Source of the DNA: Nitratireductor kimnyeongensis
Lineage (GTDB): Bacteria > Pseudomonadota > Alphaproteobacteria > Rhizobiales > Rhizobiaceae
DNA: 64,000 nt
Assembly (NCBI RefSeq): GCF_019891395.1
Contig: NZ_CP078143.1
Coordinates: forward strand, 744,001-808,000
Direction of reading: 5' to 3'
The notes beneath the pieces were generated by a model that was given only the letters and a program-made list of their open reading frames with translations, was not told where the DNA came from and searched no databases. Positions 1,656-35,512 of this stretch are shown here, in pieces; position 1 is the stretch's first letter, and the number at the start of each line of letters is the position of its first letter. A program made the translations under genes and the position numbers.

Positions 1656-1692
1656 CTACACCGCCATCTTTTCTAGGCCTTTTCCCCTGTGT

Positions 1693-1762
1693 ATCCGCCG
1701 TGGCTTGCGTGAGGCTTGAATACCTGAAGAGGCTGCGAAAGCCTCGCGCAAGATAGGCGGAT
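1693..1762. promoter_or_regulatory. Divergent operator: large inverted repeat with two CACGCAAG boxes
   Basis: The spacer between motA (minus) and the DUF1217 gene (plus) holds an imperfect inverted repeat. The left arm is 1693-1717 and the right arm 1739-1762, with a 21-base centre. The arms share ATCCGCC, CTTGCG and GAGGCTT. Each arm contains one copy of the box seen at other flagellar promoters: CCTCACGCAAG on the minus strand (1714-1704) and CCTCGCGCAAG on the plus strand (1742-1752). These lie 48 and 46 bases before the respective start codons. The symmetry suggests one regulator controlling both directions. Binding by Rem/FtcR is inferred. Confidence 0.6.
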
Positions 1763-1798
1763 TAGGGTTGCGCAACCGAAGATGGCGGAGGGCACGCC

Positions 1799-5042: not shown

Positions 5043-5680
5043 CGTTGAAACTGGCCAGTCTCGAACTTCCGGATGGGAGGCGGACCGAACCGAACCCGAC
5101 CGCTGCGCCTGCAGTCGAGGCACCCCCGTCTTCCCGAAAATCCGCATTTCTTCCCCGCCGTCTTCAAAAGGCCGCGCCGCTCCACAAGCCAAGCAGCAGC
5201 CGCAGCGACTGGATGATCATGGTCGGGGGTATCGGGCTCGCCGCAGTTTGCGCTATGTTTCCCTGGTACATTTTTTTCAATCAGGAACAGTTCGGCGTTC
5301 GCCCCATGACCTTCGCGGGGCGCCCCTCTCCCCAGGGGCCTTCGCGCGAGGCGCTCCCCGCCTTGGTCGGTGCGCGCATTCCATCGCAGATCATTCCCTT
5401 GCCGCAGGTCGATTATACGTCCACCGGAACTGTCGACCATACGCCAACCGAAGCGTTGGAAGACCAGCCCTTTCCCGGCGATGAACCAAGCTTTCGCCTC
5501 GTGCATGTGGTGGGCGGACGCGCCATGATCGAAGACGAGGATGGATATTGGCTCGTCCAACGCGGCTCTCGTCTACCCGATGGCAGCCGCGTCTCTCAGA
5601 TTGTCTGGAAAGACGGTCACTGGGAAATGGTCACGTCGCGTGAGCTGGTGGTCAAAGTTTCTGCAGAAGACGGGACGTAA
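5039..5680 (+). CDS. Single-TM protein between fliI and flgB, function unknown
   Basis: A 213-residue protein with a basic, proline-rich N-terminal tail of about 55 residues. One TM segment follows at about residues 58-80 (WMIMVGGIGLAAVCAMFPWY), and the remaining 130 residues are probably periplasmic. There is no signal peptidase site, so it should stay anchored in the inner membrane. It overlaps the fliI stop by ATGA, so it belongs to the flgF-fliI transcript. A small membrane protein at this locus is usual in rhizobial flagellar clusters, but I know no defined role. The C-terminal third (MIEDEDGYWLVQRGSRLPDG) looks like a small beta domain. Confidence 0.8.
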   Translation: MTLKLASLELPDGRRTEPNPTAAPAVEAPPSSRKSAFLPRRLQKAAPLHKPSSSRSDWMIMVGGIGLAAVCAMFPWYIFFNQEQFGVRPMTFAGRPSPQGPSREALPALVGARIPSQIIPLPQVDYTSTGTVDHTPTEALEDQPFPGDEPSFRLVHVVGGRAMIEDEDGYWLVQRGSRLPDGSRVSQIVWKDGHWEMVTSRELVVKVSAEDGT

Positions 5681-5681
5681 G

Positions 5682-5692
5682 GCCCACACAAG
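5682..5692 (+). promoter_or_regulatory. Putative flagellar regulator box upstream of flgB (GCCCACACAAG)
   Basis: This is a divergent copy of the CACGCAAG-type box, followed by CTGCCTAA about 5 bases later. It begins just after the stop of the one-TM gene and ends 54 bases before the flgB ATG, the same distance range as the other copies. It is the weakest match of the set. Confidence 0.4.
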
Positions 5693-5746
5693 ACTGGCTG
5701 CCTAAAGTGCCATCAGGATGTTTGCATAGACCGAGAGACTTGCCTG

Positions 5747-13903: not shown

Positions 13904-13926
13904 ATGGGGTCGCATCGCGACCCCAT
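13904..13926 (+). terminator. Terminator-like hairpin after the second flagellin
   Basis: A perfect 10-bp stem, ATGGGGTCGC (13904-13913) and GCGACCCCAT (13917-13926), loop ATC, followed by TTCATTTTCG. The ATG of the longest fliF frame is part of this stem, which argues against it as the fliF start. Confidence 0.75.
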
Positions 13927-13931
13927 TTCAT

Positions 13932-13942
13932 TTTCGCACAAG
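13932..13942 (+). promoter_or_regulatory. Putative flagellar regulator box upstream of fliF (TTTCGCACAAG)
   Basis: Close variant of the flgE and flhA box TTTCACGCAAG, followed by CGTCTAG about 6 bases on, similar to ACGCTAG after the flhA copy. It ends 48 bases before the TTG start. Brucella FtcR is known to act on the fliF promoter, which fits the assignment to the Rem/FtcR homologue encoded here. Confidence 0.5.
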
Positions 13943-13990
13943 CTTCGGCGTCTAGTCTCCCGGACACAACTCGTATGGGAGCATTGGGCG

Positions 13991-20833: not shown

Positions 20834-21508
20834 GTGATTGTCGTGATAGACGAGCGTGAGTTGGTGACTGAAGGTTATCACTCACTTTTCAATCGTGAAG
20901 GAGTTGCGAGCGCGGGGTTCGCACCGGACGAATTCGGAGAATGGGTCGAGACTGTCCCTGACGATGAACTCAAGGCGGTCAGTGCATTCCTGCTCGGCCA
21001 GTGTGATGGCGGCAACATCCGGGCCCAGCGCATTCGCGAGCGCTCCACCGCCCCCTTGATTGCTCTCAGTGAACGCAATTCGCTTGATGACACATTGCGC
21101 ATGTTCGAGTGGGGCGTCGACGATGTCGTCCGCAAGCCGGTTCACATCCGCGAAATCCTGGCACGCATCACGGCGATTCGTCGTCGCGCCCAACAGGAGA
21201 CGGAGACGTTCACGGAAATTGGCGCCATGCGGATTTACTTCGACGGGCGCGACCCGGAAATCGAGGGGCAACCGCTTCCCCTGCCACGCCGTGAACGCCG
21301 GATCTTGGAATATCTGGCGAGCAACCCCACGCGCCGGGTGACCAAAACGCAGATATTCAACGCCATCTATGGCATCTTCGATGAGGATGTCGAAGAGAAC
21401 GTGGTCGAGAGCCACATAAGCAAATTGCGCAAGAAGCTTCGCGAGAAGCTCGGGTTCGATCCCATCGATTCCAAGCGCTACCTTGGCTACCGGCTGGCGG
21501 ACACCTGA
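20834..21508 (+). CDS. rem: Rem/FtcR-type flagellar transcriptional regulator, atypical receiver
   Basis: OmpR-family regulator of 224 residues, matching Rem of Sinorhizobium and FtcR of Brucella, activators of the flagellar genes. It starts at GTG 20834 with GGAGGG 7 bases upstream. A receiver-like domain (residues 1-115) is followed by a winged-helix domain (about 125-222; [43 protein letters not shown]). The receiver keeps the Ser in LIALSER and Lys in RKPV. The usual phospho-accepting Asp after strand 3 is absent (VSAFLLGQC), so phosphorylation control is unlikely. No sensor kinase is nearby. Confidence 0.9.
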
Positions 21509-21525: not shown

Positions 21526-21548
21526 CCTTCAGAAAGCACTACCACCAG

Positions 21549-21560
21549 TTTCACGCAAGT
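21549..21560 (+). promoter_or_regulatory. Flagellar regulator box upstream of flgE (TTTCACGCAAGT)
   Basis: A 12-base match, identical to the one upstream of flhA (26943-26954), ending 50 bases before the flgE ATG. Variants lie at matching distance before motA, the DUF1217 gene, fliF and flgB. It follows the rem terminator directly, so it should serve the flgE-fliQ transcript. Regulator identity (Rem) is inferred. Confidence 0.6.
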
Positions 21561-21610
21561 CACGCCTCCTACCTTGTCCGTGATCGGCGTAGACTATGAG
21601 GAGACTTCCG

Positions 21611-25812: not shown

Positions 25813-26246
25813 CCACTTTAAAAATATCGCTCAAAGCCAACGAGAAGATCTACGTCAACGGCGCCGTCATCAAGACCGACCGGAAAGTGACGCTCGAATT
25901 CCTCAACAACGTTCAGTTCTTGCTTGAGAACCACGTCCTTCAGGCGGAAGATGCCCACACACCCCTGCGCCAACTGTATTTCACGGTTCAGATAATGTTG
26001 ATCACGCCGGACAATGCAAATGACGCGCGCCAACTCTTTGGCCAGCTCCTCCCCAAACTCCTAAACAGCTTCACAAGCGAGCGAATTCGTGCCGGCTTGA
26101 AGCATGTGGAAGAGCTCGTAACAAACGGTCAAGTTTATGACGCCCTGAAGGAAATCCGTGCGCTCTATCCCGTCGAAGACGAGATCATGACCCAGAATAA
26201 TCAACTGGCCCGCAGCGAGCCCGTCACTGCCATTGCAGGAGAGTAA
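25809..26246 (+). CDS. flbT: Flagellin mRNA regulator FlbT
   Basis: A 145-residue post-transcriptional regulator that binds flagellin mRNA leaders in Caulobacter. The N-terminus LKISLKANEKIYVNGAVIK and the segment HTPLRQLYFTVQIMLI are typical. It is ATGA-coupled to flaF. The leader hairpin of the first flagellin (11873-11893) is a plausible target. Confidence 0.94.
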   Translation: MTTLKISLKANEKIYVNGAVIKTDRKVTLEFLNNVQFLLENHVLQAEDAHTPLRQLYFTVQIMLITPDNANDARQLFGQLLPKLLNSFTSERIRAGLKHVEELVTNGQVYDALKEIRALYPVEDEIMTQNNQLARSEPVTAIAGE

Positions 26247-26918: not shown

Positions 26919-26942
26919 TCCCTTCCCTGTCCCCCTCTCCTC

Positions 26943-26954
26943 TTTCACGCAAGT
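26943..26954 (+). promoter_or_regulatory. Flagellar regulator box upstream of flhA (TTTCACGCAAGT)
   Basis: Identical over 12 bases to the box before flgE (21549-21560), followed by ACGCTAG. It ends 63 bases before the ATG chosen for flhA, which supports a separate flhA-fliR transcript. Confidence 0.6.
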
Positions 26955-27017
26955 TTGAGACGCTAGCTTCCACGCACGGACGTGCAAACGCGTCCTGAAT
27001 CGAGCGGGAAGACCGGC

Positions 27018-29902: not shown

Positions 29903-30292
29903 ATGCCGACACCCCGCCAGAAGCGTCTGCAGAAACTGGTTCTGGTCATGCAGCGTCTCAAGGATTTTCACCAAGCCCAGCACGCCGCGCACATGGCCGA
30001 CGCCGCCGTGGCACAGGAAGAGGCAAAAGCCATAACCGAAACGCTCGATGCCGGAACGGACATGACAGCGCTGTTTCCGGAGCTTTATCATCGTCGCGTC
30101 GCCAATGCGCTTGAACGCAGCCGTGCAAGCGCCGAACGCGCCCGGCAGGAAGCGGAGCGCCTGTTGCAGGCCGATGCACGCGGAAACGCACTGGCCCGAG
30201 CCTATCGCGAGGCCAGTGATCTATCCGAACGCAATGCTGCGGACAAGGAACGTCTGGAGTTCATCGAGCGCCGGAAAACAAGCGGGGCTTAA
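29903..30292 (+). CDS. Small coiled-coil protein, candidate FliJ
   Basis: A 129-residue soluble protein predicted to be almost entirely helical coiled coil, rich in Ala, Arg and Glu (ALERSRASAERARQEAERLL), without signal or TM. It starts 2 bases after fliR. Size, coiled-coil character and position suggest a FliJ-type export chaperone, for which no other gene is seen in this cluster. FliJ has little sequence conservation, so this remains a guess. Confidence 0.55.
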   Translation: MPTPRQKRLQKLVLVMQRLKDFHQAQHAAHMADAAVAQEEAKAITETLDAGTDMTALFPELYHRRVANALERSRASAERARQEAERLLQADARGNALARAYREASDLSERNAADKERLEFIERRKTSGA

Positions 30293-30352
30293 GCCTCCCA
30301 CAAGCTTGCTCTGAGAAGATGCTGCCTACGAAAACGAATGATGGAGGACGCC

Positions 30353-30895
30353 TTGGCGATATCGCCTCCAGGCGACATTGTCCTGAACGTTGCGCGCGCC
30401 GCCGACCCCACCAAAGCTGCAGCCGCAAAAGAGCGGCTCCAAGCGCAATCGGGCGTGACCGCAAGCTTCTCGGCAGTGTTCGACGAAAACCCCGTCCAGG
30501 CTTCGAAGGCCAACGCAAACGCTCCTTCCGATGTCGAGAGGAAGTTCGAGGCGATGGTGCTGCAGAACTTCATGCAATCCCTACTGCCTGAGGAGACGTC
30601 TGCCGTCTATGGCGAAGGTCTCGCGGGTGAAATGTGGCGGTCCATGTTGGCCCAGCAACTGAGCGAGACGCTGGCAGAAAAGGGCGGCATAGGCATCGCA
30701 CGCAGTGTGTTGCGCGACTACACGGTGGAGAACGAAAAGCCCGTGCCGATCGGCGCGGTCTCTCAAACACCTGAGCAGGAAGAGGTCGGCAAACGTGCGC
30801 TTCTTTCCACTGCCATGGTCGAGGAAATCCAACGAGAAACAGCCAAAACACTCGGCGTGAACACGGCCTCGGCCAGCCGCGACAAAGACAGCTGA
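30353..30895 (+). CDS. flgJ: Rod-binding protein FlgJ (single-domain, CheL type)
   Basis: Scaffold for rod assembly. I chose TTG 30353 because a GGAGG (30343-30347) sits 5 bases upstream and the product then begins MAISPPGDIVLNVARAADP, as in relatives I recall. The upstream ATG at 30338 would place the ribosome site inside the gene. The 180-residue product has the rod-binding motif (KFEAMVLQNFMQSLLPEE, WRSMLAQQLSETLAEKGGIG) and no muramidase domain; a separate transglycosylase is encoded at 20141. Confidence 0.88.
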   Translation: MAISPPGDIVLNVARAADPTKAAAAKERLQAQSGVTASFSAVFDENPVQASKANANAPSDVERKFEAMVLQNFMQSLLPEETSAVYGEGLAGEMWRSMLAQQLSETLAEKGGIGIARSVLRDYTVENEKPVPIGAVSQTPEQEEVGKRALLSTAMVEEIQRETAKTLGVNTASASRDKDS

Positions 30896-33938: not shown

Positions 33939-35072
33939 TCAGATCACATAGGATCGTAGCGGCTCGAAACCGTTGAATGCCACCGATGCGTAGGTCGTGG
34001 TGTATGCGCCCGTGCCCTCGATCAGCACCTCATCGCCAATTGTCAGCGAAACCGGCAGCGGGTACGGGGTCTTCTCATACATCACGTCGGCAGAATCGCA
34101 GGTCGGCCCGGCCAGTACGCAAGGTGCCGTTTCGCTGCCGTCGTGACGCGTTACGAGCGGATAGCGAATCGCCTCGTCCATGGTCTCGGCCAAACCGCCG
34201 AACTTGCCGATGTCGAGATAGACCCAGCGCACATTGTCGTTGTCAGCCTTCTTGGAGATGAGGACAACTTCCGACTTGATGACGCCGGCATTGCCCACCA
34301 TGCCACGCCCCGGCTCGATGATCGTCTCGGGAATGCGGTTGCCGAAATGCTTGCGCAGCGCCGAGAAGATCGCCTGGCCGTAAGCCTGTGCGGCGGGCAC
34401 GTCACGCAGGTAACGTGTCGGAAATCCGCCACCCATATTGACCATGCGCAACACGATGCCTTCGTCCGCAAGTGCACCAAAAACGCCGCGGGCGTCGGCC
34501 AGTGCACGATCCCAGGCGTCGAGATCTGTCTGCTGCGAGCCAACGTGAAAGGAAACGCCATAGGGGTCCAGACCGAGAGCACGGGCATGACGCAGAACGT
34601 CGACGGCCATGGCCGGTACGCAGCCGAACTTGCGCGACAGCGGCCACTCGGCCCCCGCACCATCCGTCAGGACACGGCAGAACACGCGTGAGCCGGGAGC
34701 AACACGCGCGATTTTCTCCACCTCTTCCTCGCAATCGACCGCAAACAGACGAATGCCCAGTTCATAGGCACGCGCAATGTCGCGCTCTTTCTTGATCGTG
34801 TTGCCATAGGAGATGCGGTCCGCAGTCGCGCCGGCATTCATCGCCATTTCGATTTCGGCCACCGAGGCCGTGTCGAAGCTGGAGCCCAACTGAGAAAGCA
34901 AACGCAGGATTTCCGGCGCCGGGTTGGCCTTCACCGCGTAGTAGATCCGGGAATCGGGCAGCGCCTTTTCAAAGGCGCAGAAATTGTCGCGCACCACATC
35001 GAGATCAACGACGAGGCAGGGGCCCTCGGGACGTCGGGTGGCGAGGAAGTCGAGAATGCGCTGGGTGGCCAT
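33939..35072 (-). CDS. odc: Ornithine/lysine decarboxylase (alanine-racemase-fold, PLP)
   Basis: Decarboxylates ornithine (possibly also lysine) to putrescine (cadaverine). The 377-residue product starts at ATG 35072 with GGAGAG 6 bases upstream. PLP lysine is Lys48 in YYAVKANP. HVGSQQTD and the glycine loop MGGGFPTRY bind PLP. The dimer-donated substrate cysteine lies in GPTCDSADVMYEK. Homospermidine synthase at 46344 would use the putrescine. A long leader lies upstream. Confidence 0.93.
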   Translation of the reverse strand: MATQRILDFLATRRPEGPCLVVDLDVVRDNFCAFEKALPDSRIYYAVKANPAPEILRLLSQLGSSFDTASVAEIEMAMNAGATADRISYGNTIKKERDIARAYELGIRLFAVDCEEEVEKIARVAPGSRVFCRVLTDGAGAEWPLSRKFGCVPAMAVDVLRHARALGLDPYGVSFHVGSQQTDLDAWDRALADARGVFGALADEGIVLRMVNMGGGFPTRYLRDVPAAQAYGQAIFSALRKHFGNRIPETIIEPGRGMVGNAGVIKSEVVLISKKADNDNVRWVYLDIGKFGGLAETMDEAIRYPLVTRHDGSETAPCVLAGPTCDSADVMYEKTPYPLPVSLTIGDEVLIEGTGAYTTTYASVAFNGFEPLRSYVI

Positions 35073-35505
35073 GTGTCTCTCCAATCGCGGCTTTCAGACC
35101 GCGTTACCGAAGCTTCGAAATTGCGAAAGCGAACTCGCCTCCGCGGTGGACAAAGGGCGCGGCATACGCACACGGGATCCGGCAGGTGGAGAGCACCGGA
35201 ACCAGGTCATGCGATAACGCGCTTCGATGCATTCCCGCCTCGCGGCGAAGATGCGCTTTGTCTGCCTCAGCTTTGGATGGGAGACCCCAACCGCACTGCC
35301 GGCAATGAAGGTGTGCCTCTTCAGTAACCCCGGCTTTTGGACAGCCGGCAGACACCAGAAAGGCCCGCACCGTCGTTGCTTCAAGATGTCCTCGGTTTGA
35401 TGGTTGGCCATCAGACCGACTGGAGCGGTTAGGTCCAGGTACCGTACCGGTTTCCTCGCCATTTTCGAGGTCCGGCGGACACCCACAGGCACGTGCGACT
35501 TTGGG
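35073..35505 (-). promoter_or_regulatory. Long structured leader of odc, speF-RNA candidate
   Basis: About 430 bases separate the odc ATG from its predicted promoter, far more than usual, and no supportable gene lies there on either strand. Several G/C-rich hairpins are visible, for example CGCC-GCGA-GGCG near 35237-35248 and a CGCGG/CCGCG pair just before the ribosome site. The speF RNA family is known upstream of ornithine decarboxylase genes in alphaproteobacteria, so this leader probably is a member. I could not test the fold. Confidence 0.6.
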
Positions 35506-35512
35506 CAGCGCG

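Follow-up and report, generated by a model that had tools for sequence, protein, structure and literature searches.

In rhizobia, agrobacteria and related bacteria, motility is under the master control of regulators of the Rem family. A relative, PhoB, recognises the half-site TGTCA; at the pho box and at class II promoters, its 11-bp tandem repeat ends about 10 nt before the -10 and replaces the -35. Tandem direct repeats are common among the operators of the OmpR family (PMC9275681). Rem itself is reported to belong to an aspartate-less class that acts without phosphorylation, and direct activation of class II genes is ascribed to it (PMC9812332). In Bradyrhizobium, the lateral flagella are reported to be under its homologue LafR, whereas the polar ones are not (PMC8429497), and the FtcR motif obtained by ChIP in Brucella is TGTGGGCA (PMC9456535).

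The window analysed here is a stretch of 64,000 nucleotides from the 4.05-Mb genome (2 contigs) of Nitratireductor kimnyeongensis; window positions equal genome coordinates minus 744000. Positions 1-32000 hold the flagellar cluster: motA, a DUF1217 gene, flgF, fliI, flgB to fliP, flagellin, fliF, motB and fliK, followed by a lytic transglycosylase gene, rem, the flgE group, flaF, flhA and fliR. Pfam gave a family for 16 of the 19 cluster ORFs queried, one of the 16 below cut-off; the remaining gene names are those we presume from position. Beyond the cluster, a speF leader (RF00518) adjoins an ar45 sRNA (RF02347) on the minus strand at 35224-35506.

A first-pass annotation had pointed to six related strings at the heads of flagellar units, the same before flgE and flhA. 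All six are present where it placed them and on the strands it gave (Table 1), and TTTCACGCAAGT is indeed identical at 21549 and 26943, with no further exact copy in the genome. The longest ORF called there, starting at 13904, contains the fliF box, but the FliF of relatives aligns to it only from about residue 29.

Table 1. Boxes, the proposed regulator and candidate target genes; plain numbers are window positions, and C1 and L numbers are our handles for a contig and for loci.
Feature	Position	Strand	Sequence or remark
Box and -10-like hexamer before flgE	21544..21575	+	ACCAG TTTCACGCAAG N10 TACCTT
Box and -10-like hexamer before flhA	26938..26969	+	TCCTC TTTCACGCAAG N10 TAGCTT
Box and -10-like hexamer before fliF	13927..13958	+	TTCAT TTTCGCACAAG N10 TAGTCT
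Box and -10-like hexamer before flgB	5677..5708	+	GTAAG GCCCACACAAG N10 TAAAGT; both tandem half-sites visible
Box and -10-like hexamer before DUF1217 gene	1737..1768	+	GAAAG CCTCGCGCAAG N10 TAGGGT
Box and -10-like hexamer before motA	1688..1719	-	TCAAG CCTCACGCAAG N10 TACACA; both tandem half-sites visible
Weaker seventh box before flgJ-like gene	30289..30320	+	TTAAG CCTCCCACAAG N10 GAAGAT
flgJ-like rod-binding gene	30338-30895		downstream of seventh box
rem/ftcR, OmpR/PhoB-type regulator, proposed binder	20834..21508	+	
Orphan gene, own genome	C1:740765-741172	-	outside window; 14.9-bit box on same strand about 83 nt upstream
Orphan gene, S. meliloti	L286:17399-17845	-	box 81 nt upstream
Orphan gene, Tianweitania	L038, L039, near 9.3-9.7 kb	-	box 77-79 nt upstream

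In full, the element consists of two half-sites in direct tandem order, RCAAN-N6-RCAAG, with a period of 11 bp; 10 nt separate its end from a -10-like hexamer. The first-pass reading as a shared flagellar promoter box stands; the word it noted is the better-kept, downstream half of this tandem direct repeat, because the offset scan peaks at 11 bp, and the sites are more than six. Compared with the five letters 11 bp upstream, the RCAAG pentamer agrees in 96% of positions at flgB, 79% at motA, 70% at flgE and 65% at fliF of other families, and by 0.49 at DUF1217; other offsets give 0-39% in the flgB, motA, flgE and distant fliF groups. A 10-bp period appears weakly at Rhizobiaceae flhA (0.32 at 11 bp vs 0.35 at 10 bp) and fliF (0.31 vs 0.40), both with a degenerate upstream half-site. 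The sequence is GCAAG-N6-RCAAG at most flgB sites, TCAAG-N6-RCAAG at most motA sites and GCAAY-N6-RCAAG at many distant fliF sites.

The CTA-like element that had been noted at a similar offset exists, and its offset is exact: TA starts 10 nt past AAG in 6/6 sites. It is better described as a hexamer that resembles a -10 and keeps a constant distance, TANNNT in 5/6 (motA has TACACA). Among the 192 sites of named relatives, TA stands at N10 in 191 and TANNNT in 188, and nothing like TTGACA appears in their column table where a -35 with a 17-nt spacer would lie. The box thus has the fixed place by the -10, without a consensus -35, of an OmpR/PhoB-type class II operator. We infer that the TANNNT hexamer is the working -10. 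As judged from the sequence, the layout of the element is that of OmpR/PhoB-type activator promoters.

When up to three mismatches are allowed, the plain 12-mer occurs 47 times in the window against a mean of 48.9 in shuffles; there is no enrichment, and plain-word enrichment was dropped as evidence with the window count at chance level. The pattern YCRCRCAAG-N10-TA has 9 matches in the genome, of which 6 are the noted sites and 3 overlap coding sequence, and YCRCRCAAG-N10-TANNNT has 6, of which 5 are noted sites. These numbers are not raised relative to the backward pattern (9 vs 35 and 6 vs 5, respectively): the placement of the matches, not their number, is the striking feature. The three YCRCRCAAG-N10-TA matches that overlap coding sequence were rejected as sites; by eye, they lie in an ornithine-decarboxylase-like gene (window 34617-34637), in a kinase-like gene and in the last codons of rpsK, about 100 nt before rpoA, this last rejection being the least firm. 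Three tandem-pattern matches outside the cluster overlap open frames and were set aside as well. Over 249 genomes, the strict pattern gave few matches in most of those listed and was not used as a count.

The YCRCRCAAG-N10 pattern was shaped partly on the six sites themselves; the independent test is a matrix of 126 distinct sites from other genera, from which nine Nitratireductor loci, the closest named loci (Rem identity 88-98%), were left out. In the window, the six sites take the first six ranks with this matrix (43.0, 30.8, 28.2, 23.9, 17.5 and 13.9 bits), the next match scoring 8.4 bits and the reversed window at most 2.5. One of 20 Markov-shuffled windows reached 17.8 bits and another 10.0, so that motA and flgB, the two weakest sites, lie within chance by the shuffled-window test alone; relatives back both.

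In the best 30 of the matching genomes (99 and 97 in all), a sample of near relatives, motA upstreams exceed 10 bits in 26/30 Rhizobiaceae and flgB upstreams in 26/30, with 0/30 in each reversed control. The corresponding count for DUF1217 in this sample is 17/29 (control 0/29); our own genome is included in all three. For the other heads, the core YYCRCRCAAG was sought within 300 nt upstream of placeable flgE, flhA and fliF in 80 named loci, and was found in 78/78, 42/42 and 72/72 loci, respectively. The gene starts of relatives were extrapolated from alignments and some recorded distances are unusual; locus L042 has a better flgE match than the recorded one. The box is confirmed as real at all six places.

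The matrix scan of relatives that the first-pass annotation called for gave a strong enrichment at flagellar heads: in 1.59 Mb of named loci, 202 matches exceed 12 bits (reversed control: 3) and 191 of them lie at the heads of flgE, flhA and fliF, the three from which the matrix was built. Sorted partly by inspection, the 11 matches elsewhere include three that look like true head sites (L023 and L072, flhA-like and near the locus end, and L042 flgE), four variants in Mesorhizobium that precede a second gene for flagellin, two before an orphan gene in Tianweitania, and two without explanation (L035 and L069). In Mesorhizobium L050, L075, L080 and L083, near 1350-1530, a degenerate box (CAAC/CAAT) stands about 170-190 nt before the second flagellin gene.

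The boxes are confined to unit heads, as had been claimed; the list of six was short by the weaker site before the flgJ-like gene. This seventh box ranks 8th in the window at 7.5 bits and coincides with a tandem pattern match at C1:774290. Upstreams of the flgJ-like gene score above 0 bits in 15/33 relatives, against 0/33 in the reversed control, and the flgJ-headed unit is probably under the same regulator.

S. meliloti, a species with published control by Rem, holds in strain Ak57 eight sites of 14.9-39.1 bits, the next best match scoring 3.2 and the reversed control at most 5.5. The matrix gives 30.9 bits for fliF, 29.8 for flhA (placed in the gap between fliQ and fliR, as it has no annotation row), 25.4 for an orphan gene, 19.6 for flgE, 17.6 for motA, 17.2 for flgB and 14.9 for DUF1217. 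The top site, 39.1 bits, stands upstream of the motB unit, 287 nt from its annotated head, and is nearly identical to the Nitratireductor fliF box. S. meliloti fliF, which has its own box, is next to che and to two genes of LuxR type, visNR to judge by their position. The flgB box is intact, 24 nt before flgB; an ISRm16 transposase gene (L284:826-2221) ends about 200 nt before it. The main text of the S. meliloti start-site paper (PMC3616915) does not contain the string 'flagell'. Phyllobacterium zundukense has sites before flgB, fliF, flgE, flhA, the rod-binding gene and motA (12.3-27.3 bits; control at most 2.6), and only a poor one, at -1.6, before DUF1217.

The orphan gene encodes a protein of about 150 aa with no Pfam or NCBIfam match. 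Its neighbours are flagellar genes or rem, and it is likely a new Rem target.

The only DNA-binding regulator that the first-pass annotation saw in the cluster, Rem, has the Pfam domains Trans_reg_C (2.5e-17) and Response_reg (1.9e-7). Its best NCBIfam match is PhoB, at 82.9 bits far below the cut-off of 296.2. At what we judge to be the phospho-acceptor position, 123/123 aligned sequences have Gly, although Asp follows directly in 70; the receiver appears to lack the phospho-acceptor Asp. Autoregulation of rem through the box was rejected: 0/122 rem upstreams score above 0 bits.

We surveyed 249 genomes of an order taken as Hyphomicrobiales, as inferred from the named loci; family codes such as f16 are arbitrary labels. 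By best E-value, type I FliF (at most 4.4e-105) separates from type II (5.8e-71 and weaker). Rem, called at E of at most 1e-50 with one partial match (G063, 3.4e-43) left out, occurs in 71 genomes and type I FliF in 66; 66 have both, none has type I without Rem, and 5 have Rem without type I. Fisher's test gives 6.6e-55 for this association, with shared ancestry ignored. The co-occurrence of Rem and the box is partly shared ancestry of one flagellar gene set.

A leave-one-family-out matrix was used outside the Rhizobiaceae because the Rhizobiaceae matrix by itself overlooks many of the distant sites. We examined 49 of 55 type I fliF upstreams there, covering 12 of the 13 families (f27 falls wholly within the six remaining genomes), together with 40 type II regions; Rem-negative genomes contributed 30 of these and two-flagella genomes 10. 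Of the type I upstreams, 39/49 beat all 40 type II upstreams, with at least one in each of the 12 families, and 39/49 reach p at most 0.01 against 200 shuffles each; the ten misses fall in f16 (six of seven), f21 (three of six) and f2 (one of six). No type II fliF region (0/40, 792 kb) exceeds 16 bits, the maximum being 5.8. Within the ten two-flagella genomes, the box is present at type I fliF in 10/10, and 20 kb round type II fliF hold nothing above 16 bits in 10/10.

Around rem itself, 40 neighbourhoods (37 genomes, 3 of them Rhizobiaceae) contain 21 matches above 16 bits in 17 stretches (reversed control: 0), 12 of which stand before a recognised flagellar gene; with the Rhizobiaceae matrix, 23/40 have nothing above 16 bits. 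By eye, other boxes in these neighbourhoods precede a CheY-like gene, a sensor-kinase-like gene and a gene before motB. A strong box (32.3 bits) lies near rem at L134:14428, in genome G015, where no FliF was found.

The enrichment at flagellar heads, the tandem-repeat architecture and the associations of Rem with the box and with the flagellum all point to Rem (20834-21508), the binder that the first-pass annotation had favoured. We consider it highly probable that Rem/FtcR/LafR, the flagellar activator, has the box as its operator; it would recruit the housekeeping polymerase and switch the units together. In the mechanism we propose, a pair of Rem subunits would occupy RCAAN-N6-RCAAG, with its 11-bp period, in head-to-tail order. 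The occupied repeat would cover the place of the missing -35, ending 10 nt before the degenerate TANNNT, and from there Rem would bring in the housekeeping RNA polymerase in the manner of PhoB. Transcripts are predicted to start 6-9 nt after TANNNT and roughly 20-45 nt before the first gene. One regulator could so switch on the motA-, DUF1217/flgF-, flgB-, fliF-, flgE-, flhA- and probably flgJ-headed units together, and the amount of Rem would set flagellar transcription.

It is very unlikely that the box and TANNNT are instead the promoter of a dedicated sigma factor, with the box as its -35 and Rem acting elsewhere. Rigid spacing between two elements would be expected there too, but a sigma-70-type -35 lies farther from the -10 than 10 nt, and the box ends only 10 nt away, too close for such a -35. 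The upstream tandem repeat would have no role in such a promoter, nor would the association of the box with Rem follow from it. FliA (sigma-28) in particular was rejected, as no match in the genome exceeds the TIGR02479 cut-off; there are four weaker sigma-family matches. Less credible still is a post-transcriptional or structural reason for keeping the box, such as a leader RNA or a terminator remnant. A GC-rich, terminator-like inverted repeat does directly precede the fliF boxes of many relatives, by eye. The flagellar cluster has no Rfam match at the gathering threshold, however; the distance of the box is constant to TANNNT and variable to the start codon, and if TANNNT is the -10, the box would lie outside the transcript.

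About as improbable as a dedicated sigma factor is that CtrA, ChvI, CenR, FeuP or VisNR binds the box and Rem stands upstream of that regulator. The CtrA site, TTAA-N7-TTAA, repeats at about 11 bp as well, but it occurs in 0/192 box regions, and CtrA was rejected. The CenR motif, TGA-N8-TGA, also differs from the box. Repeats of about 11 bp are likewise found for S. meliloti ChvI and for FeuP, but the ChvI motif differs by description (GCC-N8-GCC in S. meliloti, TTGC-N3-GCAA in Caulobacter; PMC9731502), as does the candidate FeuP motif TTCA-N7-TTCA (PMC3616915). VisNR stands above Rem in rhizobia, but it is reported missing in B. diazoefficiens and A. caulinodans, both of which have Rem homologues (PMC8429497). 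The box as the published FtcR site was rejected too: TGTGGGCA occurs in 0/192 box promoter regions of named relatives and once in the window, at 25952 on the minus strand, away from all sites.

The Rem operator proposed above thus conflicts with TGTGGGCA, the sole published motif of the Rem family that we found. On balance, we favour the wider view that RCAAN-N6-RCAAG-N10-TANNNT is the true and ancestral operator of the aspartate-less Rem/FtcR/LafR family, that it accompanied one whole flagellum type through at least 13 families of the order and defines a direct regulon with uncharacterised genes such as the orphan, and that TGTGGGCA would not be the flagellar operator. A precise consensus allows candidate direct targets to be listed from sequence and new genes to be assigned to the regulon, and it predicts start points and spacing rules. 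In the open literature searched, we found no consensus of the RCAAN-N6-RCAAG form, in line with the first-pass annotation; earlier publication is possible.

Among described systems, the candidate FeuP motif of S. meliloti, TTCA-N7-TTCA, resembles the element in being an 11-bp tandem repeat upstream of transcription starts with a response regulator proposed for it, but both the half-site and the genes are other (PMC3616915). The Rem/FtcR/LafR regulon of S. meliloti, Brucella and Bradyrhizobium shares the regulator family, the gene cluster and the kind of target operons with this locus, whereas the published Brucella motif differs from the box. The pho box of PhoB has the same 11-bp tandem repeat about 10 nt before the -10, at the place of the -35, with a different half-site: TGTCA there, RCAAG here. 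Rem also departs from PhoB in belonging to the aspartate-less class (PMC9812332). Finally, the absence of the box from the 40 type II fliF regions agrees with the report that LafR does not control polar flagella (PMC8429497).
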